Positions 1,778-13,348 of a DNA stretch of 64,000 bases are shown here, one piece after another. The notes under the pieces are model-generated. The model had not been told where the DNA came from and searched no databases. It saw nothing but the letters and a program-made list of their open reading frames with translations. The stretch's first letter is position 1. Every line of letters starts with the position of its first letter. The DNA is taken from positions 126,307-190,306 of the forward strand of contig NZ_FRAU01000003.1 in the NCBI RefSeq assembly GCF_900142415.1. The letters are read 5' to 3'. The position numbers and the translations under genes were made by a program. The DNA comes from Rhodothermus profundi. GTDB lineage: Bacteria > Bacteroidota > Rhodothermia > Rhodothermales > Rhodothermaceae.

Positions 1778-3367
1778 ATGGCTTCTTCTGGAATACAGGA
1801 GACTGTTAGCTACTGGCCTCTCGGCTGGATATACGAGTTTGCCTGGTGCCTCCGGCGAGGCTACTATGCCTGGGCAGAGGGGCCAGAAACGGCCTCTGTG
1901 GTGCTATCTGCAGGCGGAGTCTGGTGCGTTCATCAGGGATGGGGAGGGCAGGTCATGGTACGGCGGGACCCTGTCGAAGGACCGGTAGTGGCACTGCTCC
2001 GGCCCGTTGAAGCCCACGTGGAAAAGGACGAAGAGATACTTCGCCTCGTGCTGGGAGCTCTGGCGGAGCTATACGAAAAAGCCCGGGGAGAGCCGGTTCG
2101 CTGGGGAGAGATCCAAGAGCAATCGCCAGGGCGAGCAGTCCGGATACGGATTGACGAAACCGTGCGACGCAGCTGGCAGCAACTGGAGCGGCAGATTCGG
2201 GCGGTCATTCAGGAGGGCCGGATTCCCGAACCACGTGCCGATGATCGTTGTCTGCGGTGTCCCCGACAGGCGGTGTGCGTCCCCTTCGACGCGTCCTCCG
2301 AAAAAGAAGCACAGGAGGCCTGCGTTCAGCCACCTGTGCGGACCGCTCGTACGTTGTATGTAGATGAAGTGGGTGCGGTGGTGCGACGGGAAGGTCGCCA
2401 ACTCCTGGTTACTGTCAGCACGAACGGCCAACGCGCGGAGCGCCTTCGGCTACCTGCGTTGCTGATCGATCAACTGGTGCTGGTGGGTCCCGTGCAGATC
2501 ACTACCCAGGCCCTTCGACTCCTGCTGCGAACCAACACCGACATTGTCTATCTATCGCGGAGCGGCCGCTTCGAGGGACGCCTGGCACCAGAATTCCATC
2601 CGCATGTCGCTTTGCGGCTAGCCCAGTATGCGGCATATGCCGACCCGGAAAAATCGCTTTCGCTTGCCCGCAGGTTCGTTCAGGCCAAGCTGCACGGCAT
2701 GGCCACGCTGCTTCGTCGCCGGCGACGTCACCATGCACGGCCGTTGCTTCAGCAGGTGGCTGGCCAGATCCTAGAAGATGCCCGCCGACTTTCGCGGGCC
2801 GCATCGATTGACGTGGTGATGGGCATTGAGGGCGTGGCCACCCGCCGCTATTTCAGTGTATTTGAAGCGCTACTCAGGCGGGCGAAGGAAGAGTGGCCTA
2901 CGTTCTCCGGTCGGAAGCGTCGTCCACCAACTGATCCGGTCAATGCCACACTGAGCTATGTGTACACGCTGTTGCTGAGCAACCTGGTAACAGCGTGTGC
3001 GGTCGCCGGATTGGATCCGTACATCGGTTTTCTACATGCGCCACGCTACGGACGTCCGGCGCTGGCACTGGATCTGATGGAAGGATTTCGTCCGGCAGTT
3101 GCCGATGCGCTGGTGTGCCAGCTTTTTCGACAGAGACGGCTACAGCCCACTCACTTCGAGAAGCGGCCCCCGGGAGTTTATCTAAACGAACGAGGGCGCG
3201 CCATTGTGTTGAGAGCCTGGCAACAGCATCGACAGCGAAGGGTCTACCATCCAGTACTGCACCAGAAGCTAAGCTGGGTACGCTACTTCGAGGCTGAGGC
3301 GCGCCTCCTGGCTCGTTCTCTACTGGACGAGCAGGTCGATTATGAGCCCTCCCTTTTGAAGCCATGA
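1778..3367 (+). CDS. cas1: Cas4-Cas1 fusion, CRISPR adaptation integrase
   Basis: A 529-residue fusion. Residues about 1-178 are a shortened Cas4-like part with Cys24 near the N terminus and Cys158, Cys161 and Cys167 in the pattern CLRCPRQAVC, the usual iron-sulphur ligands. I cannot find the RecB-type nuclease motifs (GxxD, ExK, QL) between them, so this half may not cut. Residues about 190-529 are Cas1, the metal-dependent integrase that with Cas2 inserts spacers into a CRISPR array; the expected catalytic residues are Glu351 (GIEGVATRRYF), His420 (GFLHAPRYG) and Glu435 (LDLMEGFRP). The stop overlaps the cas2 start in ATGA, indicating translational coupling. Fusions of this kind are known in several CRISPR subtypes. 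No array lies in the window. Confidence 0.93.
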   Translation: MASSGIQETVSYWPLGWIYEFAWCLRRGYYAWAEGPETASVVLSAGGVWCVHQGWGGQVMVRRDPVEGPVVALLRPVEAHVEKDEEILRLVLGALAELYEKARGEPVRWGEIQEQSPGRAVRIRIDETVRRSWQQLERQIRAVIQEGRIPEPRADDRCLRCPRQAVCVPFDASSEKEAQEACVQPPVRTARTLYVDEVGAVVRREGRQLLVTVSTNGQRAERLRLPALLIDQLVLVGPVQITTQALRLLLRTNTDIVYLSRSGRFEGRLAPEFHPHVALRLAQYAAYADPEKSLSLARRFVQAKLHGMATLLRRRRRHHARPLLQQVAGQILEDARRLSRAASIDVVMGIEGVATRRYFSVFEALLRRAKEEWPTFSGRKRRPPTDPVNATLSYVYTLLLSNLVTACAVAGLDPYIGFLHAPRYGRPALALDLMEGFRPAVADALVCQLFRQRRLQPTHFEKRPPGVYLNERGRAIVLRAWQQHRQRRVYHPVLHQKLSWVRYFEAEARLLARSLLDEQVDYEPSLLKP

Positions 3368-3645
3368 GATACTGGCTGGTTGGATACGACATCGCCGATA
3401 TGCGTCGACTGCAGCGTGTCGGCCGCTTTATGGAGGATTATGGCCAGCGTCTGCAGTACAGCGTGTTTCTGTGTCGGTTAGAACCCCAGGAAATGCAACG
3501 CATGCGGCGCCGCTTGCGTCGCCTGCTGAACCTGAAGGAAGACCGCGTCTTTTTACTTCCCCTGTGTCGGGAGTGCTTTCATCGTATGGAGCAGCTGGGA
3601 CGTCCGCTTTCGCTTCAGATTGACCAGGACTACTGGATTCTCTGA
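3364..3645 (+). CDS. cas2: CRISPR-associated protein Cas2
   Basis: A 93-residue protein of normal Cas2 length and ferredoxin-like pattern. It begins MRYWLVGYDIAD, with the conserved acidic residue Asp9 after the first strand, and ends in a hydrophobic strand. Cas2 forms the structural core of the Cas1-Cas2 integrase. The start overlaps the cas1 stop by four bases, so the two are almost certainly co-translated. A long imperfect hairpin lies 12 bases after the stop. Confidence 0.93.
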   Translation: MRYWLVGYDIADMRRLQRVGRFMEDYGQRLQYSVFLCRLEPQEMQRMRRRLRRLLNLKEDRVFLLPLCRECFHRMEQLGRPLSLQIDQDYWIL

Positions 3646-3656
3646 GTTTGGTTTAC

Positions 3657-3700
3657 CATGGGACAGCCTTCCTATCTGAAAGCCAGATAGCTGACCCATG
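3657..3700 (+). repeat. Long inverted repeat downstream of cas2
   Basis: A hairpin with three paired segments: CATGGG (3657-3662) with CCCATG (3695-3700), CAG with CTG, and CTATCTG (3672-3678) with CAGATAG (3684-3690), around a five-base loop AAAGC. The left arm carries a five-base bulge. No T-tract follows, so it is not a classical terminator. It may end or attenuate the cas1-cas2 transcript or be a binding site. Confidence 0.5.
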
Positions 3701-3771
3701 CGATCGGCACCAATGCTTACGATCTTCTACTGTTCAGATGCGATAACAACCCGGTTGAACATCTGCCGCCT

Positions 3772-4668
3772 ATGAAAAAAGACTTCAAATCGACCTTCGG
3801 GGAAATCGACGCTGCAGAAGCCGAAAACATCCGCAGCGTCTTCAGAGCCCTGGGAGAGCGGGTGGACCACGCTCTGAGCAAACTCCGGATATACAAGCAG
3901 GAAGACAAAAGAGCTCAGCTCTTCGGCAGTATCGCAGGAGCTGCGGCTGCATTGCTAACCGGCGGACTGGGCCTTGGAGATTTGATCATCTATCCAGTAG
4001 TCTCTTCAGCTACCCGTGCAGCTCTAGGACCTGAAGAAACAGACATGAAACGCATCTATCACAAACTTTCTGAGGCTCTGGAAAAGCGCGCAGCCATGAT
4101 TGTGCATTTTCCGGATGTAGTATTGTCTGGAGAAGAAAGAGATGTAATTTTTAGAGATTTATTATTGCTATATTATGTAAAAAAGAAGCCTCGCAGTAAA
4201 TTACTTGAACAGATAGATAATGAATTAGCTCCAAAGAATATGAAGCTTCATATTTTATTGGATAAACTTATCCATTATATTGGAAATCCTGACGCTCGCG
4301 AAATAGACGATCTGGTGTTTTTCTGTCTGTTCTACTACGGACTAGTAAACCACAAACTTTATCTTTCGCTTCGGGAGGGGCGAGAAGAACTGGAGCTCCA
4401 GCTTGCCTGGGTACTGGGCCAGATGGATACGATGGTTACTATCTTCGAGGCGGTTGAAAAACAACTCATAGCCCGGCACGCGGCTACGCTGGAACTGCGC
4501 GAACCTTTTACGCCAGAGCAGGTGCGTCAGAACTATCGGCGCTTGATGAAAGCATGCCATCCCGACCGTTTTCCAGAAGCCACTGCGGAGATGAAACGAC
4601 AGCTTGAAGAAAAAACACGCCAGCTTAACGAGGCCTATCAGTTCTTTCGGGAACGATTAGGCTTTTAG
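3772..4668 (+). CDS. J-domain protein with a hydrophobic segment, CRISPR-island member
   Basis: A 298-residue protein of unknown function. Residues about 52-80 are glycine/alanine-rich and hydrophobic, possibly membrane-associated. Residues about 110-240 are helical and unrecognised. The last 50 residues form a DnaJ-like J domain with the diagnostic His-Pro-Asp at 263-265 (KACHPDRFPE) followed by the expected helix. J domains stimulate the ATPase of Hsp70 (DnaK) partners. The gene lies between cas2 and cas6 in the same orientation, with gaps of 126 and 70 bases. Bases about 4130-4310 are clearly AT-rich against their surroundings, hinting at a different origin for the middle. J-domain proteins are not standard cas products; the link to CRISPR is by position only. 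Confidence 0.7.
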   Translation: MKKDFKSTFGEIDAAEAENIRSVFRALGERVDHALSKLRIYKQEDKRAQLFGSIAGAAAALLTGGLGLGDLIIYPVVSSATRAALGPEETDMKRIYHKLSEALEKRAAMIVHFPDVVLSGEERDVIFRDLLLLYYVKKKPRSKLLEQIDNELAPKNMKLHILLDKLIHYIGNPDAREIDDLVFFCLFYYGLVNHKLYLSLREGREELELQLAWVLGQMDTMVTIFEAVEKQLIARHAATLELREPFTPEQVRQNYRRLMKACHPDRFPEATAEMKRQLEEKTRQLNEAYQFFRERLGF

Positions 4669-4738: not shown

Positions 4739-5725
4739 GTGACGCCTGCTATCCCTTCTGGGCTAGATCAGTTGTGCTGGTCGGTGATACAGTTCGACCT
4801 AGACGTATGCGCTCCCATTGATCTGGGCAGTATGCCGGCTGCCACGATACGCGGTGCACTGGGCGCTTCACTCCGCCGCCTGGTATGCATCACGCGGCTC
4901 TCTGACTGCACGGACTGTCCCTTTCGCTGGCCATGCATCTATGGATATCTGTTTGAAACGCCACCCCCTCCCGGTGGGCAGCAGTTACGCAAGCTTCAGA
5001 ATGTGCCTCGCCCCTATGTAGTGCGGCGCCCCAAACTCCATGAACGCCAGTTCGTCCCTGGGACGACACTTCAGATCGAGCTTCTATTGATTGGTCGAGC
5101 CCGCATGTATCTGCCCTATCTTATGCTGGCCCTGCAGCGGCTGGAGACGCAGGGAATCGGACGCGGGCGCCGCGAGGGCACCGGGCGTTTTCGTCTGGTT
5201 TTGGCGCGGGCGCTGCGTCCAGATGGAACGTATGATGTCGTCTATGACCGCACATGCCGACAGGTGCTGGCCGAGGTGCCAGCGTGGCGGCCGGCTGATC
5301 TGCTTTCCTCCGGATACCCCGGAGAGGTTATGCGTTTGCGTACCAATACACCGCTCCGCTTAAAGGCAGCAGGACACCTGGTGCGGAAGCTTACGTTCCG
5401 TATTCTGCTTCGCTCTATTCTCAGTCGGCTGTCCAGCCTGGCCGCCTTTCATGCAGAGACAACGCTGCAGCTTGACTTTGCCAGTCTGTTGCGGCAGGCC
5501 GAAGCGGTCCGCACCCGAGAAGACCGACTGCAATGGTTCGATGGCCTGCAGCGCTACTCCAAGCGACAGCGCACCACGATGCGGCTGGGTGGACTGGTTG
5601 GTGAGATCATCTTCGAAGGCATCTCTCCAGAGCTCTGGGCCTGGCTGACGCTGGGCGCTGCGCTGCACGTGGGGCATGGAGCTGTAATGGGGCTAGGGCA
5701 CTACGATATCGAACCCGTATCATAG
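4739..5725 (+). CDS. cas6: CRISPR pre-crRNA endoribonuclease Cas6
   Basis: A 328-residue RAMP protein. Near residues 50-66 it has the cysteine pattern C-x6-C-x2-C-x5-C found in a subset of Cas6 proteins (the PF10040-type family). The C terminus carries the glycine-rich Cas6 signature (HVGHGAVMGLGHYDI). Cas6 cuts the repeats of pre-crRNA to give mature guides, mainly for type I and type III systems. The start is GTG at 4739, because no better ATG lies upstream of the conserved N-terminal strand. The last six bases overlap the convergent CARF-HEPN gene. Its presence implies a transcribed CRISPR array elsewhere. Confidence 0.85.
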   Translation: MTPAIPSGLDQLCWSVIQFDLDVCAPIDLGSMPAATIRGALGASLRRLVCITRLSDCTDCPFRWPCIYGYLFETPPPPGGQQLRKLQNVPRPYVVRRPKLHERQFVPGTTLQIELLLIGRARMYLPYLMLALQRLETQGIGRGRREGTGRFRLVLARALRPDGTYDVVYDRTCRQVLAEVPAWRPADLLSSGYPGEVMRLRTNTPLRLKAAGHLVRKLTFRILLRSILSRLSSLAAFHAETTLQLDFASLLRQAEAVRTREDRLQWFDGLQRYSKRQRTTMRLGGLVGEIIFEGISPELWAWLTLGAALHVGHGAVMGLGHYDIEPVS

Positions 5726-7054
5726 GGGACGTATCTGGGGAAGACGCTTCAGCGCTGGATCGCCCAGATGCTGTTCGAGAACGGCCAGCACGGCAGAAAG
5801 TTGGTCTCGCAGCTCTTCCGGACGAAGTGGCGGTTCGTTTTTTCCAGTCCTTGCATGCGCTATGCGATTCCGTAACTGACGTAGTGAACGAACGCACGCC
5901 ACCAAGTCGTGCAAATCGGGTAACAACTGTTTCTTTACTGAGGGATGGAGCAAAGCGTCTACGAGTCGTTGCTGGTTGCGGAGCCCTCCTTTGTTAGCTA
6001 CTCTGCTACTTGGGTCTACCTGATAGATCTCGCCGAGGCGAGAGACGACCGCCTCATAAGCCGCAAGGACGGCTAGTCCAAGCCGATCGTGGCGTAGATG
6101 ACTGCGGGCAATTTGCAACATGGCCTCCCAGTCGCTCCGAGCATTGGCCAGTTGGTCCGGCGTGTACCTCAAGGTGGGGAGGATCATTCGGAAGGGGAGG
6201 GGAAGAGCTTCAGCCTGTTGTTCAAGATGTGCTAATCTTTGCGATAACCGTCTGCTTCGATGACGGACGTCTGACAGCAGGTTAAACTGCAGCTGATAAG
6301 CATAATCCCGTAATTCCTGGGCCAGACCAGGATTAATCTGATTTTTCATTAAACGAAGCAATTCAGAGATTTCCTGATTCTCGGCAAACGTGCGAGCAGC
6401 CAGACTCCACTGCATGAGCTCCAGCAGAGGGGACAGATCGAAAATTGGAGCACGGTCTGCGAAGTAGCCTCGCAGTTCATGTGCTCCATAGAAGAGCGAT
6501 CCAAGGCGGATGCCTGGGCGGGTTATACTCAGAAAAAACATGGCCAGTAGTAGAAAGAACGGCTGATAGCGCAGGCCATGCGTGATGTCGAGAGAAAGGA
6601 GACCCTCGGGAATAGAAAGCTCGGTCAATGCCCGAAAGGTCTGCCACAGCTCTTCATGAGAACGACCCACAGGGATGAGGTGCAACGAACAGGGATGTTC
6701 GAGAAATGCTTCAACCCGATGTTGCACCTGAGGGAGCAGGTTACGTACTGCCTCTTCGTCACGCTGTTCGATGTATTCGTATAGCTTACAGTAAAGTTCA
6801 TCGTCCCCGTCTGTGGGGGCTGGTGTGGCGTGTAGAAACAGGGTATCCCACATAGCATCGACGGTCCCCAGAATAAAAACCTTCCGGAAGCGCCTGGGAT
6901 GGAGTTTCAGGATAGCTTCGCCCACAAAAGGTGTCTCGACGGTTTTCTCAGGGCGGTTGGCCATAAAGTACACGGTGCGACGATAGTTGCGCGCCTGTGC
7001 GTCTGTCCGATAGCGATCACCTGAGCCCAGAAGTAAAAACAGCGTTTCTTTCAT
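5720..7054 (-). CDS. CARF-HEPN ribonuclease (Csx1/Csx2-type, DxTHG), copy 1
   Basis: A 444-residue protein. The N-terminal CARF region starts with a Rossmann-like strand and GSGDRYR, and carries the DxTHG signature as DITHG at 156-160. The C-terminal HEPN domain has the R-x4-H ribonuclease motif RNRIAH at 395-400. In type III CRISPR systems such proteins are activated when cyclic oligoadenylate, made by Cas10 on target recognition, binds the CARF domain; the HEPN domain then degrades RNA nonspecifically. It is the last gene of the minus-strand accessory run, 61 bases after the ring-nuclease-like gene. No Cas10 is in the window, so the source of its activator is unknown. Confidence 0.88.
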   Translation of the reverse strand: MKETLFLLLGSGDRYRTDAQARNYRRTVYFMANRPEKTVETPFVGEAILKLHPRRFRKVFILGTVDAMWDTLFLHATPAPTDGDDELYCKLYEYIEQRDEEAVRNLLPQVQHRVEAFLEHPCSLHLIPVGRSHEELWQTFRALTELSIPEGLLSLDITHGLRYQPFFLLLAMFFLSITRPGIRLGSLFYGAHELRGYFADRAPIFDLSPLLELMQWSLAARTFAENQEISELLRLMKNQINPGLAQELRDYAYQLQFNLLSDVRHRSRRLSQRLAHLEQQAEALPLPFRMILPTLRYTPDQLANARSDWEAMLQIARSHLRHDRLGLAVLAAYEAVVSRLGEIYQVDPSSRVANKGGLRNQQRLVDALLHPSVKKQLLPDLHDLVACVRSLRQLRNRIAHARTGKNEPPLRPEELRDQLSAVLAVLEQHLGDPALKRLPQIRPL

Positions 7055-7115: not shown

Positions 7116-7766
7116 TCACCTGCAGGGCAGGCGGCGATGAAGACGGGCGAGCTCTTCCAGTTGCTGCCGAAATCGAACCAAGTGTAAATCGACTCGCTCG
7201 ATCCGCACTTCCTGCCGGCCTCCCGAACGTGGATAGAAAAACGTGAGGTCTTCAAGCACGGACTGCTCTGGATGGACCAATACGTGGATACTCTCGTCCT
7301 GCGGGCGGGCATACAGGGAAAATGCAGTGAGCAGGTGTGCACTCATGGTCTTACGGCCGCCTGCAATAGAGGCCACCACACGAGGCGCCTCGGGATCGGC
7401 GCAGAGCCGGGCTACCACCTGGTAACACAGCTCGGCATAACGCCGATCGTCGTCCCAGGTGCGGATGTCGTCCAGCTTGAGCCCATTCCCGCGCAGTGGG
7501 ACATGAATAAACCAGGTGGGCGCCTCCGGGCTCTCTGGTTCCAACTGAAGCACCTCTCGGCAGAAACGCTGCCATACCGAAAAGCCTTCCTCATCAGGTG
7601 TTTCAAAGAGCCGGTGGCGCAAAATCCGCTCACCGGTAAGGGTTGTGACCACGTGAATCTCGTCTGGAATAGCCGGTTGGGGGTGTTCGATGGCCAGCGT
7701 CCAGATGGTTTCGGTGAGGACGGCCGGCGACACACCCAGCGCAATTAACAGGTTGTAGCGTTCCAT
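7116..7766 (-). CDS. CRISPR ring-nuclease-like protein, NE0113 family
   Basis: A 216-residue protein with the two hallmarks of the Cas_NE0113 family: an N-terminal GVSPAVLTETIWTL (11-24) and SIAGGRKTMS (133-142). This CARF-type fold occurs at the N terminus of some Csm6 proteins and as stand-alone proteins in type III loci, where members bind or cleave cyclic oligoadenylates and so switch off the signal. Here there is no HEPN domain, which fits an off-switch rather than an effector. It lies between two unrecognised small genes and CARF-HEPN copy 1, all on the same strand. Family membership is fairly sure; the enzymatic role is inference. Confidence 0.8.
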   Translation of the reverse strand: MERYNLLIALGVSPAVLTETIWTLAIEHPQPAIPDEIHVVTTLTGERILRHRLFETPDEEGFSVWQRFCREVLQLEPESPEAPTWFIHVPLRGNGLKLDDIRTWDDDRRYAELCYQVVARLCADPEAPRVVASIAGGRKTMSAHLLTAFSLYARPQDESIHVLVHPEQSVLEDLTFFYPRSGGRQEVRIERVDLHLVRFRQQLEELARLHRRLPCR

Positions 7767-8572: not shown

Positions 8573-8639
8573 CCGGTTTGAGGGTGTGTCGGTCAGGATA
8601 CGTCCCAACTTCCCGAAAAGACTCCTTTCGGAAATTCCG
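8573..8639 (-). promoter_or_regulatory. Putative promoter/operator A of the CRISPR accessory genes
   Basis: On the minus strand, the palindrome CGGAATTTCCG (arms CGGAA/TTCCG; plus-strand 8629-8639, 14-base identity from 8626) lies 63 bases before the ATG at 8562. The box TCAAACCGG (8573-8581) lies just before the start codon. The same two elements occur in the same order before the DUF4236 gene. The segment is inside or just beyond the 3' end of the 132-residue gene upstream, so it would be an internal promoter. Conserved layout is direct observation; promoter activity is inference. Confidence 0.5.
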
Positions 8640-8645
8640 GTCATC

Positions 8646-9044
8646 TTATGAAGATTGGAGACAGACAGGATACTTCCGAAAGCGTACAAATCGAAAATAG
8701 GCAATTTTTCTGCCACGTGTGGGATCTTCTTCAACGATGCGGTGCGAGGTGGCTGCCAGGCAGAGGATCCCCTTCTGCTGCAGTAACCGCACCAGCGTGC
8801 AGGTGAAGGTCTGCTCGCCCATGACGTGCACCGCGTGAGGGCCCGGGCCCGCTTCCCGAAGCCGGTCTGTGATTCGACGGGCATAGCGCTGCGCCAGCGC
8901 TGCCACCTGCCGATCGTCCCATTCTGGCGGGATCGCCGGAAAGGGCCAGTCTTCAATCGGACCATAGGGCGCCGCAGCGGCGCGCTGCGGCGCTCCCCAG
9001 GAGGTCGCAGGATGATTACTCAGATTGATCAACATCGCGTTCAA
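8646..9044 (-). CDS. Small CRISPR-associated protein (LINLSNHP / VHVMGE family)
   Basis: A 132-residue protein with an N-terminal strand MLINLSNHP, a central VHVMGEQTFTCTLV and a C-terminal FRFVRFRKY. I recall this pattern from small proteins beside type III CRISPR loci in Bacteroidota, but cannot name the family with certainty. The size and Rossmann-like strand pattern would suit a minimal CARF or ring-nuclease fold. Its first 29 bases overlap the end of CARF-HEPN copy 2, so translation is probably coupled; a second in-frame ATG at 9035 gives a start closer to the conserved strand. The 3' end abuts the internal promoter A. Confidence 0.65.
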   Translation of the reverse strand: MNAMLINLSNHPATSWGAPQRAAAAPYGPIEDWPFPAIPPEWDDRQVAALAQRYARRITDRLREAGPGPHAVHVMGEQTFTCTLVRLLQQKGILCLAATSHRIVEEDPTRGRKIAYFRFVRFRKYPVCLQSS

Positions 9045-10206
9045 TCCATTCCGCTGCCGATTCTGCCAGCTCGCATGCTCTTCTAAAAAGAGCGTCAGTT
9101 TGCAGCGGCTGGGCTCTCATGCCAGCATGGTTGATATCGTTGCGCACGTTGGTCAGCTCGTTCCAGAGCTTGGCCAGCGCGTGGCGAGCGCCCGTGTACG
9201 CACGACGCGTTTCCGGGTCTTGCAGGCCCTTGGCCAGCTGGTTAAGCGCTTCTTCTGCTTTTTCTCGCTCATGCAGCGGGTCATATCCTGCATCCAGCGC
9301 CTGCCGGGTCACCATGGCTTCGCGGGCTACGGTGATGGCCTGCTGCACCAGGCCGAAATTCAGGAGGAGCCGGATTAAAGCCGCCTGCGCCTGAAGCCCT
9401 TCGTACGAATAGGGGTGGGGGTGCTGAAGCGGCTGCACCCGCCGGGCTGTCTGGTCCAGTAATAACCCGAACGGTCGCAATCTCGGGATATTCAGAATAT
9501 CTTCCCGGACCTGCTGCAGCGCCTGGGGCAGCTGACGGGCATGCTGCTGAAGGACTTCTGTCAGTCGCACCAGACTCATTCCCCTTGAAAATCCTTCCAG
9601 CCATCCGGCCGTGCGCTGCGCATGCCGGGCCTTTGTGTCGGTAGACTCCACATAGGTCAGGCGGTGGATCTCCCGTAGCAGCTGCGCCAGCTCGCCTGCC
9701 TGGCCATAACGAATGAACAGATGCGCTGCAACGCTCCATTCGATCAGCCTCAGAAAGGGGGTCAGGTCAAAGACCGGTGCTTCATCTGCATGATTTCTGG
9801 CGTCATATGCTCCATAAACAATGCGCTCAATTTCTACGTTTCGTGTGACGCGTAGATAATACAGCGCCGCCAGAGACAGCATAGGCTGCGTTCGAAGACC
9901 ATGGGTAACATCAACAATCAATATATCCTCATCTGCAATGTGATGCGTCAGCACATTGAAAATTTCCCAGAGCTCTTCTTCATTTTTACCTTCAGGAATA
10001 TAAACAGGTTCATATTCAATAATCTGTTTTATCCAACATCCATGTTTTTCTTCTGCTTCTCTGGTCATAAAAATAAGGCATCGTTCTGGACGAAAGAAGC
10101 GATAGACGGCTTCCTGGAAGTAGCGTGTCGTGTGGCGCTGATCCTCCCAGCAGTAGGTGCAGCATTGATAGTTTCCGATCCCCAGAAATGAAATCTGCAC
10201 GCGCAT
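9016..10206 (-). CDS. CARF-HEPN ribonuclease (Csx1/Csx2-type, DxTHG), copy 2
   Basis: A 396-residue protein when started at the ATG at 10206; the frame is open further upstream, but the extension is low-complexity and overlaps the DUF4236 gene, so I reject it. The start MRVQISFLGIGNY matches the first strand of Csx2-type CARF domains. DVTHG (99-103) is the DxTHG signature, and RNDINH (355-360) is the HEPN R-x4-H motif. The role is the same as for copy 1: RNA degradation on binding cyclic oligoadenylate. The two copies share architecture but differ greatly in sequence, so they may sense different ring sizes. The 5' third (about 9900-10200) is AT-rich compared with the rest. Confidence 0.88.
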   Translation of the reverse strand: MRVQISFLGIGNYQCCTYCWEDQRHTTRYFQEAVYRFFRPERCLIFMTREAEEKHGCWIKQIIEYEPVYIPEGKNEEELWEIFNVLTHHIADEDILIVDVTHGLRTQPMLSLAALYYLRVTRNVEIERIVYGAYDARNHADEAPVFDLTPFLRLIEWSVAAHLFIRYGQAGELAQLLREIHRLTYVESTDTKARHAQRTAGWLEGFSRGMSLVRLTEVLQQHARQLPQALQQVREDILNIPRLRPFGLLLDQTARRVQPLQHPHPYSYEGLQAQAALIRLLLNFGLVQQAITVAREAMVTRQALDAGYDPLHEREKAEEALNQLAKGLQDPETRRAYTGARHALAKLWNELTNVRNDINHAGMRAQPLQTDALFRRACELAESAAEWIERDVDQSE

Positions 10207-10255
10207 GGCAGTAGATGAACTCGTGAGCAATTTTACCTTAGTAATAATCCGCAGC

Positions 10256-10450
10256 TTATGCGTTTTTACGTCGTCTGGGCGAGCGGCGCTCCAGACGCCA
10301 GCGGCCACGACCCAGCCGAATATAGGGGCGGCCGCCGGGGGTGCGGCCGATGCGCAGGCCCCGAGCACCAATGCTAATGCCAAGACCCCGATGGCTGATT
10401 GTCAGACGAATCGGGCCCAGACAAAATGTCTTATAAAGCTGGAACGGCAT
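10256..10450 (-). CDS. DUF4236 family small protein
   Basis: A 64-residue protein with the DUF4236 pattern: an N-terminal LGPIRLTIS, then GLGISIGARGLRIGR and a glycine-rich GRPYIRLGRGR segment with a basic tail. Members are common in bacteria and phages and have no established function. It lies 49 bases before CARF-HEPN copy 2 on the same strand and is preceded by promoter B. It therefore probably heads that transcript, which is an unusual place for this family. Confidence 0.7.
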   Translation of the reverse strand: MPFQLYKTFCLGPIRLTISHRGLGISIGARGLRIGRTPGGRPYIRLGRGRWRLERRSPRRRKNA

Positions 10451-10457
10451 GGCAGAT

Positions 10458-10528
10458 CCGGTTTGACAACTAAAGACGGTGCGTTATAACTCTGGGCGTT
10501 GTCGCAAAGATGCTTTTCGGAAATTCCG
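10458..10528 (-). promoter_or_regulatory. Putative promoter/operator B of the CRISPR accessory genes
   Basis: On the minus strand, CGGAATTTCCG (plus-strand 10518-10528; 14-base identity with site A from 10515) lies 64 bases before the ATG at 10450, and TCAAACCGG (10458-10466) lies just before the start codon. Between them a TATAAC sequence could serve as a -10 element. Site A has the same arrangement with TATCCT at nearly the same offset. This suggests one regulator controls both units. Confidence 0.5.
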
Positions 10529-10648
10529 AGAGGAAGTAAGCATTGTGGCAGTCTGTTCTAAGCAGGCGTTTAGAATGCTTTTTAGGCCTATTTTCTACTT
10601 GCGATAATTCCACTTATCATAAATAAGATCCTTTCAGACCACTTCTGG

Positions 10649-12271
10649 CTATCGAGTCCCGGCGTAGATAACCGGCAATACCTTCGTGAACTGGCGGTTG
10701 CCAAGGAGACTGGCTCGAAAATGGACAAAGTATACGCCCGCCGGAACGTCAGGCAGCGAAAATGAAAGACCATGCCAGCCGCCTGAGGCATATTCGCGCA
10801 TTAGCAGACGCACCCGACGTCCCAGCACATCGTACAAATCAGCCTCCACCCAGGCCGTCGTGCGCACATAGTAGCGCAATTGCACGCGCTCGGTAAAAGG
10901 CGACGGAAAAGCAACCACCCGCAGCCAGTCGGTATAGTACGGCAGTCGAACTGTATCCTCCTGCAAAACAAATGGATATCCAGTATCCGAAACCACTACA
11001 AACTGATAAACCAACTGTGCTGCTGACGGAGCCATCCCATCTGCAAATTCTCCAGATTCCAGCTCCGTGGTTTGATAGACAGTATCTGCCCGCGATCCCG
11101 CCAGCCGCACAATCGCCAGCCGCTGCGCGTTGTAAACCGCCACAAACTGCCAGCGAAGACGCACAACCCCATCTGCATCAACTGTTATCTCCGTTATAAC
11201 GTCTGCCGGACGCCGGGTACCCCGCTCAAGCAAGGCAGCTACCTCCTGACGAATAGCAGGCAACAGGGCCATATTATTATCGCCTGGACAGGCAGTTGAG
11301 GCCGAAGGCCACTCGCGGTGTCCCAGAATGTGCGCCGGATCAATGCCATAGGTATCAATCAGATAGGCCAATAGCAAGACCAACGAATCGCGGGCGGCAG
11401 GCGTTAGCTGATCGAGGCAATGCCCTCCTTCTGGAGGGTGAAAGCATCCCATAATGGCTACCCCGATATTGCCCGTATTGTGCCCCCCCACATGCGCCCC
11501 GATCACGAGCGGGGGGCCCTGGTCAAAAGGGATGCGTTCATCAGCAAACGGGCGTCCCTGGTAAATTCGTCCCTCCAGATCTAAGAGAAAATGGTAGCCA
11601 ATGTCGCTCCATCCACGGACGTCCTGATGAAACCGCTGGATGTTGCGCACTTCTTGAATGCCCTCGCTGTAAGTGCGGGGCGCAAAACCAGCCGTATGAT
11701 GAAAGGTCTCATACTCGTAATAGGGTTGCGGCGAGGGCGCACCTATAAAAGGGCGCGCGCCCCACTCACTACGACGGATCAAATGCGGGGCGCGAATGTG
11801 TCCGGTAGGTCGCCCCGGCAGCACGCGCCACTTATAAGCACCACGCAATGTATCGTCGAGGTGATTGAACGTCCCGGCCTCGATGATTTGCAGCTCCCCT
11901 ACTCCTTCTCCTTCAAATCGCACGCGGAAAAACGGGGCGTGCAGCAGGCTGTCGCTTCGATAGCCTGCCCAGAAGATAGTAGCCTGTTGCTGACGGATAA
12001 TGGTCAGCGCATGCCATGCATCTTGTCCTGCCAGTTGAATCCACCCCTGCAAGGACGCCCCGGGTGAGGTTGTGCCTCTCAGCAGAACCCCGGTAAAGGG
12101 CGCGCGCAGCGTATCGCTACGCGCTTCCCAGACGGTTTGCCCCGCTATCGTTTTGAGGGTGGGAGCCACCAGGGTAACCGGCTGTTCAACCACATCGGAG
12201 CGATGCTGCGCCTGCGCAGCCAGAGCGCCAGCCAGCAGCGCCCAACACACGAGCCATCGTTGCATCTGCAT
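10649..12271 (-). CDS. Secreted N-acetylmuramoyl-L-alanine amidase with C-terminal sorting domain
   Basis: A 540-residue protein. It has a signal peptide (residues 1-21, ending AAQAQ), a beta-rich region to about 165, and an amidase-2/PGRP domain at about 165-350. Expected zinc and catalytic features are visible: ETFHHTAGF, GYHFLLDLEGRIYQGR, GHREWPSASTACPGDN. After a linker domain, the C terminus (about 455-540) is a T9SS type A-like sorting domain with FPSPFTERVQLRYYV and GVYFVHF. The enzyme cleaves the amide between muramic acid and the stem peptide. The start is only six bases beyond the PorV-like stop, so it is the last gene of the envelope run. A role in wall remodelling is inference. 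Confidence 0.88.
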   Translation of the reverse strand: MQMQRWLVCWALLAGALAAQAQHRSDVVEQPVTLVAPTLKTIAGQTVWEARSDTLRAPFTGVLLRGTTSPGASLQGWIQLAGQDAWHALTIIRQQQATIFWAGYRSDSLLHAPFFRVRFEGEGVGELQIIEAGTFNHLDDTLRGAYKWRVLPGRPTGHIRAPHLIRRSEWGARPFIGAPSPQPYYEYETFHHTAGFAPRTYSEGIQEVRNIQRFHQDVRGWSDIGYHFLLDLEGRIYQGRPFADERIPFDQGPPLVIGAHVGGHNTGNIGVAIMGCFHPPEGGHCLDQLTPAARDSLVLLLAYLIDTYGIDPAHILGHREWPSASTACPGDNNMALLPAIRQEVAALLERGTRRPADVITEITVDADGVVRLRWQFVAVYNAQRLAIVRLAGSRADTVYQTTELESGEFADGMAPSAAQLVYQFVVVSDTGYPFVLQEDTVRLPYYTDWLRVVAFPSPFTERVQLRYYVRTTAWVEADLYDVLGRRVRLLMREYASGGWHGLSFSLPDVPAGVYFVHFRASLLGNRQFTKVLPVIYAGTR

Positions 12272-12277
12272 GAAGCG

Positions 12278-13348
12278 TCAGAAAGCAATGCCCACACTGA
12301 TCCACTGCGTTGACCCCAGCCGGCCAAAGCTGGCATGGGCAAAGTCAAAGTGAGCGCGCAGCCCGGCAGATACCAGCGTTAGCCCACCGCCCAGGGTCAA
12401 CCCCTGCTCGCCATCGCGTTCAAAGGCATTTTTATATCCAATGCGGAAGGCCAGCAGGTCGCGTAGATTGATTTCGGCTCCAACGTTCACATACTCTGTA
12501 TTGTCGTTCGGGTGAGCAGCGTCTGTCATCAACAGGAGCCGGACATCCTGGTTTTCAAAAGCTGTAAAGGCCACGCCGAAACGAAACAGCAGCGGTAGAT
12601 CATAGGCATCCAGCAGATAGGCTGCGTTGACCACCTCCACGTTCCCCTGGTTCTGTGGGTCCGGATCCACGCTAAAGTAGATATCCCGGCCATCCATGCG
12701 CATCTTGGGACCAAAGTTCGCAATGCTGGCCCCGATAACCAACCGCTCAAACGGCGTAATGAAGCGAACCCCGATGTCTACCGCTACGGCTGAAGCGCTG
12801 CTGTGCCAGATCGTCTCCCGGATGTATTTAATGGATCCTCCCAGAGAAAAGCGATCGGTCAGGCGCCGGGCGTAGGAGAGCTGGAGCGCCAGACTCTGGA
12901 CCGAGAAGCGTTCGCCTGTTCCCTCCGGTTCTTCCACGGTGCGCACCAGCATTTCGCCGGAGTTCAGGTAATACAGTCCGGCGCCAATCGAGCCAGCAGC
13001 GCCCAGCGAAATAGCCACGAGCGCTACGTCATACGAGATGCCCGCCAGGTAATTGGTATGTGTAAACTGGGCAGCTCCTCCGCGAAACCACGCCAGTCCG
13101 GCTACATTCCAGTAGAGTGCAGGCAGGTCGGTCCCCATGGCCACATAGGCGCCTCCCAGGGCCAGCGGACGCGCCCCCACCCCCAGCTTCAGAAACTGCG
13201 CACTGGTGGTTCCCACCTTGGTAATGGTAGCCCGCGCTGGCCCTTCGTTGGACAACTGGGCCCATGCAGCCACTGGCCCCCCCAGCATTCCAACAAGTAC
13301 AAACAGTTGCAACAGTCTGTTACTTGATGACCGCAAACTTTCCAACAT
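12278..13348 (-). CDS. PorV/PorQ-family outer-membrane beta-barrel protein
   Basis: A 356-residue protein starting at the ATG at 13348, giving a signal peptide that ends VAAWAQ. The frame is open further upstream, but that stretch runs antiparallel inside the preceding gene and is rejected. The mature N terminus has the PorV/UPF0164 pattern (FLKLGVGARPLALGGAYVA, ALYWNVAGLA), followed by alternating barrel strands ending in Phe. PorV proteins of type IX secretion carry cargo from the translocon to the surface-attachment machinery. The gene overlaps the 3' end of the large sorting-domain protein by 29 bases, which suggests a dedicated cargo relationship with that protein or the FG-GAP protein of the same operon. 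Confidence 0.85.
   Translation of the reverse strand: MLESLRSSSNRLLQLFVLVGMLGGPVAAWAQLSNEGPARATITKVGTTSAQFLKLGVGARPLALGGAYVAMGTDLPALYWNVAGLAWFRGGAAQFTHTNYLAGISYDVALVAISLGAAGSIGAGLYYLNSGEMLVRTVEEPEGTGERFSVQSLALQLSYARRLTDRFSLGGSIKYIRETIWHSSASAVAVDIGVRFITPFERLVIGASIANFGPKMRMDGRDIYFSVDPDPQNQGNVEVVNAAYLLDAYDLPLLFRFGVAFTAFENQDVRLLLMTDAAHPNDNTEYVNVGAEINLRDLLAFRIGYKNAFERDGEQGLTLGGGLTLVSAGLRAHFDFAHASFGRLGSTQWISVGIAF

Follow-up and report, generated by a model that had tools for sequence, protein, structure and literature searches.

A J-domain protein gene between cas2 and cas6 in Rhodothermus CRISPR loci and its possible role as a DnaK co-chaperone

In Rhodothermus, a gene for a protein with a C-terminal J domain was found between cas2 and cas6 in five of five loci, including a second R. 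marinus plasmid (from SG0.5JP17-172), an arrangement that suggests a built-in role for a chaperone in the CRISPR immune system of this genus. We started from a stretch of 64,000 nucleotides of Rhodothermus profundi (contig NZ_FRAU01000003.1, positions 126,307 to 190,306), here called the window. The reading that we favour, to which we give a probability of roughly 0.38, is that the gene encodes a CRISPR-dedicated DnaK co-chaperone belonging to the cas1-cas2 module, with Cas1-Cas2 as its most likely client. The protein consists of an N-terminal domain, X (residues 1–225), followed by the J domain, and the features of the window to which we refer are the following.

1778..3367, plus strand: Cas4-like/Cas1 fusion, its Cas4 part just below the Pfam cut-off
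3364..3645, plus strand: Cas2, overlapping cas1
3646..3771, plus strand: 126-nt spacer separating cas2 from the J gene; contains an imperfect inverted repeat
3772..4668, plus strand: J-domain protein gene, 298 aa, ATG start, X (helical, with a hairpin) and then J (Pfam DnaJ and model)
3919..4035, plus strand: glycine-rich hydrophobic helical hairpin, residues 50–88 (model, hydropathy and family alignment)
4036..4446, plus strand: fast-diverging AT-rich helical region, residues 89–225 (GC content and lowest identity between two plasmid alleles)
4447..4668, plus strand: C-terminal J domain, residues 226–298, and stop codon (Pfam DnaJ, VIA and HPD)
4739..5725, plus strand: Cas6, 70 nt after the J gene
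5720..7054, minus strand: Csx1-type CARF-HEPN protein, converging on cas6
7116..7766, minus strand: Csm6/NE0113-type CARF protein, 216 aa (family match)

An earlier note on this DNA, made from the sequence alone, had described a complete HPD J domain inside the cas gene run, and the profile search agreed: the Pfam DnaJ model matched residues 239–292 of the window protein above its cut-off (E = 1.2e-7; 32.1 bits against 27.8). The HPD tripeptide (residues 263–265, codons at 4558–4566) lies between model helices 248–262 and 272–296, which places the protein among the J-domain (Hsp40) proteins, and each of the five Rhodothermus proteins has HPD in its J domain. Structure prediction, which the same note had proposed, recovered the J domain at the C-terminus. 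The full-length model (mean pLDDT 82.4, pTM 0.68, from a 6-row alignment) is all-helical, with a helix at 14–62, a TGGLGLG turn, a helix at 69–85, further helices up to residue 239, and the J domain at approximately 227–298, for which the best VIA row was 6rzy_A (Z 8.0, rmsd 2.6, 65 residues aligned). No Foldseek match with E <0.001 was obtained for the full-length model. X modelled alone (8 rows, mean pLDDT 82.4) had none with E <0.001 in PDB or BFVD either, a result that does not make the fold new. The best VIA row for X, 6mbw_B (‘Transcription Factor’; 158 residues aligned with Z 7.5 and rmsd 5.1), came ahead of rows for STAT5a; we set this likeness aside, as the score is within the range common for helical bundles.

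The hydrophobic segment that had been proposed next to the J domain is real, with a Kyte–Doolittle 19-residue window maximum of 1.67 at residue 50, but it was modelled as two helices joined by the TGGLGLG turn and not as a single transmembrane helix. The hairpin has the family motif TGG-G-ED, which reads TGGLGLGD in the window (3958–3981), and the E-D pair lies within the hairpin in most members. Across seven proteins, the hydropathy maximum ranged from 1.46 to 2.09, and its peak was not always in the hairpin. The AT-rich middle was confirmed as well: GC content is 39% at residues 89–225, 54% at residues 1–88 and 53% in the J part, while cas1, cas2 and cas6 are at 55–61%, and the J gene has a lower GC content than its cas neighbours in four of the four loci with both measured. 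The separate origin that had been read from this composition seems to hold for the gene as a whole and not for its middle. The whole J gene looks gained from outside, given that the X profile matched in only 4 of the 114 genomes of the order, all of them Rhodothermus. Relatives from another family already combine all four parts, from the N-terminal region and the hairpin to the middle and the J domain; the middle was therefore not inserted on its own but is the fast-diverging part of one old architecture. Residues 89–225 are possibly the part that faces a client or partner.

The layout resembles that of DjlA, in which a hydrophobic segment is followed by a helical region and a C-terminal J domain. 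The window protein has the same order, but its hairpin carries TGG-G-ED and its gene lies in a cas operon, and the NCBIfam DjlA model matched the J part only (25 bits against a cut-off of 162). J proteins of the DjlA/TerB type have a TerB-like central domain. In the window protein Pfam recognized DnaJ alone (E up to 0.01), three X domains searched at E up to 5 had no Pfam match, and the fold searches with X gave no clear one. Class A and class B DnaJ proteins have an N-terminal J domain, a G/F linker and C-terminal substrate domains; the window protein has its J domain at the C-terminus, with no other Pfam match at this threshold (E up to 0.01). Among known CRISPR accessory families, PADLOC gave 0 families at E up to 0.01, and the eight NCBIfam families detected, all below their cut-offs, were J-protein models and one adenylosuccinate lyase model. 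No CRISPR-linked J protein was found in the text of the open-access literature searched.

The contig carries csm1, csm3, csm4 and csm5 upstream of the window, and the R. marinus plasmids are annotated as type III-A; we therefore take the window locus to be of this type. Beyond cas6, the minus strand encodes, in order, Csx1, the Csm6-type CARF protein, two small proteins without a match, Csx20 and a second Csx1. A 26-nt direct repeat (8614–8639 and 10503–10528, 85% identical, core TTTCGGAAATTCCG) is located upstream of two minus-strand CRISPR accessory genes and may be a shared regulatory site. Within the spacer after cas2, the inverted repeat is at 3657–3700, and the spacer as a whole folds with a z of -2.16 (reached by 8 of 200 shuffles). 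In genome G005 the spacer is 108 nt long and its folding is less marked (z -1.39, reached by 19 of 200 shuffles), and in genome G003 and the two R. marinus plasmids it is 14–23 nt long. Other genes were seen upstream of cas1: locus L041 has, between the csm genes and cas1 (8775–12356), two genes with TOTE conflict system domains, and locus L008 (11171–12962) has two DUF488 genes and a hypothetical gene, present in pRMAR01 and G003 and without a homologue in the searched 100 of 105 kb of plasmid pRHOM17201.

Over the five loci, the J gene begins 14–126 nt after cas2 and ends 70–81 nt before cas6. These loci come from one genus, are few and related, and two are on plasmids; they have nevertheless diverged, and a gene that recurs inside the cas operon of all five qualifies as CRISPR-linked. 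The earlier note had expected its idea to fall if homologues never neighboured cas genes, and they do. Full-length relatives were detected in four of seven Rhodothermus genomes (G000, G002, G003 and G005), a count that leaves out a J-only match in G001 (E 9e-4) and becomes five of seven with it. The presence or absence of the J gene agrees with that of the same cas6 in seven of seven genomes. Nine other cas1 or cas6 loci were searched, namely six cas1 loci in other genera of the order, the second cas1 that pRMAR01 carries, and two cas6 loci on plasmids; no X-J relative was found at them, several of the stretches ending soon after cas2. The last locus search for X-J and cas genes left out matches with the window’s own protein as query. 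Given this absence, Cas1-Cas2 in general does not need an X-J protein.

The J proteins fall into two groups, the window and G005 on one side and G003, DSM 4252 and SG0.5JP17-172 on the other, with 53% identity within the first pair and 36–41% across the split. The same split is seen in cas1 (76% against 57–60%), cas2 (84% against 54–58%) and csx2 (71% against 46–48%) and is absent from cas6 (65% against 66–71%). Since csx2 shares it, the split does not single out cas1-cas2. Across it, the J protein is more diverged than Cas1 or Cas2; between DSM 4252 and G003, the J protein is 77% identical, Cas1 74% and Cas2 84%. For this last pair the J gene is under purifying selection (dN 0.16, dS 0.88; J part dN 0.07, dS 0.50); many other dS values were saturated, so that closer pairs alone are informative.

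The R. marinus plasmids pRMAR01 (of DSM 4252) and pRHOM17201 gave a different picture of the gene. Their Cas1, Cas2 and Cas6 are 98–99% identical and their J proteins 58.6%. We compared 84 of the 103 annotated features of pRMAR01 with bases 1–100,000 of the 105,449 of pRHOM17201; 52 of the 84 genes matched over >70% of their length, 45 of these 52 at 90% identity or more. After removal of two paralogue matches (the second cas1 and a VapC), the J protein had the lowest identity of the 50 shared genes, the next lowest being 74.4%. Nucleotide identity drops 3 nt past the cas2 stop codon, and the last mismatch is 30 nt before the end of the J gene. The middle is the most different region (47% identity) and the J domain the least (81%). 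Considering the divergence of the two alleles (dS 0.87, dN 0.30), a distinct older allele was probably imported, replacing the J gene. Positive selection on the plasmid alleles was considered and rejected, as dN/dS is approximately 0.34 and not >1.

Different alleles beside almost unchanged Cas proteins favour a variable region that faces outward, and they argue against tight co-evolution with the Cas proteins at this plasmid pair. They favour an alternative in which the protein acts as an infection sensor, or guard: the variable middle of X would bind phage or stress-induced proteins and, with DnaK, would switch the locus on or license acquisition, the alleles being exchanged because the detected targets change. 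The clean replacement of nearly the whole gene in an otherwise near-identical cas operon, and the concentration of differences in the middle, fit this well, and so does the X-only paralogue near Avs2 on pRMAR01. There is also a precedent for a J protein and DnaK in antiphage defence, as DnaJ and DnaK mediate phage sensing by bNACHT25 (PMC12169576); there, however, the J protein is the housekeeping DnaJ and the system is of the NACHT type and not CRISPR. On the other side, the dN/dS between the alleles is not that of a gene driven to change, and the replacement is a single one from one strain pair. We consider a sensor unlikely.

Recruitment of DnaK by the window protein is plausible from its sequence. 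The genome of the window encodes one full DnaK, one partial Hsp70-family match and three J-domain proteins, and the partner of the J domain, if the domain is active, is probably this single full DnaK. The reading as a co-chaperone of Cas1-Cas2 is favoured because of what has been described in Escherichia coli, where, according to PMC10359635, Cas1 is a binding partner of DnaK, which inhibits both the DNA binding and the integration activity of Cas1 and keeps self-targeting naive adaptation in check; a phage lambda protein reverses this effect. The Cas1-DnaK contact is reported again in PMC13244154. Rhodothermus would share with E. coli the tie between a DnaK system and spacer acquisition; the difference is that in E. 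coli the host DnaK acts, with DnaJ named in PMC10359635 as a general co-chaperone, while in Rhodothermus a J gene is in the cas operon itself. We infer DnaK stimulation, Cas1-Cas2 as the client and the direction of the effect. The C-terminal J domain would recruit the single full DnaK of the cell and trigger its ATPase, and domain X, with its helical scaffold, hydrophobic hairpin and variable helical region, would bring the J protein to the client. J-driven loading of DnaK on Cas1 would then hold the integrase off DNA or, alternatively, the integrase would be released when infection occupies DnaK; in either case, spacer capture would be restrained until foreign DNA arrives. The fixed place between cas2 and cas6, the split common to cas1, cas2 and csx2, the purifying selection and the intact HPD speak for a dedicated co-chaperone, and the differing J alleles beside near-identical cas1, cas2 and cas6 speak against it. 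A variant in which the CRISPR-encoded J protein is an exchangeable infection switch, with DnaK checking Cas1-Cas2 and phage or plasmid proteins engaging X or DnaK to release acquisition, seems to us quite improbable.

The X-J architecture is not confined to CRISPR loci. Among 80 genomes of the family of G304, 12 also have it, and 19 cas queries gave no match at E up to 1e-3 at these 12 loci, two of which are only about 5 kb long and in which strongly diverged cas genes could escape. Given this result, X is not a Cas binder by ancestry. Two proteins of this group depart from the pattern: that of G419, one of the four X-J proteins in the GTPase runs described below, is without HPD and ends early, and that of G455 is without the hairpin motif. 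More widely, J proteins of 325–346 aa in other genomes of the class of G304 gave weak matches to the X profile; they share an N-terminal helical region, an X-profile middle (E 4e-13 to 8e-6 in the nine read) and a C-terminal HPD J domain, but the nine ORFs read are without the TGG-G-ED hairpin. On pRMAR01 (115283–116717; locus L034, 15284–16718), the X-only gene, without J, lies beside a gene for a small glycine-rich protein with a weak match to the YdjM membrane protein, and the two are possibly a separate defence pair. The window protein as a single query found no relatives in genome contigs, viral contigs or phage records. A viral scan with A4 as query returned five loci with matches over query residues 169–301, mainly the J part, and in PHROGs the first of six proteins had five matches, all in the J part and to families of unknown function. 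These findings are most simply explained if Rhodothermus drew a pre-existing family of J proteins into its CRISPR locus.

In the family of G304, the genes of four of the 12 relatives are found within runs of dynamin-like GTPases (loci L092, L093, L094 and L095), and these GTPases, some with Sel1 repeats, enclose or adjoin the X-J protein; Pfam Dynamin_N was present on four of four GTPases tested, from two of the four loci. This neighbourhood, together with the conserved hydrophobic hairpin and a dynamin-like protein with a C-terminal DnaJ-like domain described beside BDLP1 (PMC6104087), would fit a membrane-anchored co-chaperone or effector whose hairpin inserts in the membrane and whose J domain recruits DnaK there, as in the GTPase clusters. 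The hydrophobicity is borderline, however, most hairpins contain the E-D pair, and a hairpin of this kind might as well serve for dimerization or for client binding; we regard membrane anchoring as rather doubtful. A similarly low probability falls to a helper that folds or recycles Cas proteins in general (Cas6, the Csm complex or Csx1) at high temperature. The intact J domain within the cas run and the lineage split shared with csx2 are compatible with it; against it, the split is absent from cas6, and the genome already has two other J-domain proteins. Assembly or recycling of CRISPR complexes at high temperature, as put forward in the earlier note, gained no specific support, as nothing ties the gene to temperature. 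That note’s other suggestion, a passenger that rides in the operon without acting on CRISPR, draws on the non-cas relatives, the low GC and the two plasmid loci of five, and was weakened to the same low level, since the gene was kept in place at all five loci while cas1 diverged to 57%, follows cas6 even in its absence from the three of seven genomes without this cas6, and is under purifying selection.

The window copy itself may be partly idle, given that no array was found near the locus and that its Csm6 is shortened. The Csm6/NE0113 protein has 216 aa in the window and 398 aa in R. marinus; the match covers residues 5–215 at 88% identity, and the C-terminal part is missing. A repeat search of the window and of a further 74 kb or so of its contig detected no CRISPR array. 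Nor did a search of the whole genome, made with the repeat of pRMAR01 alone and allowing 3 mismatches, or one of the window and L041 with the 16-nt core of the repeats of relatives. In G005, G003 and pRMAR01 the cassette has arrays nearby, and in G005 (L036) CRISPR repeats are at both ends of the 9.3-kb contig that carries it. R. marinus DSM 4252, with arrays near its cassette, is thus a better experimental subject than the window strain.

These data point to a J-protein family used more than once: at CRISPR loci, close to Avs2 (as X only) and in dynamin-like GTPase clusters. The question bears on how naive spacer capture avoids the DNA of the host. If the exchangeable switch were true, it would amount to a chaperone-based gate that tells self from non-self in spacer capture, derived from a family of J proteins also found with dynamin-like GTPases. 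With a cas operon that has its own probable DnaK co-chaperone beside cas2, the link between DnaK and adaptation becomes testable.
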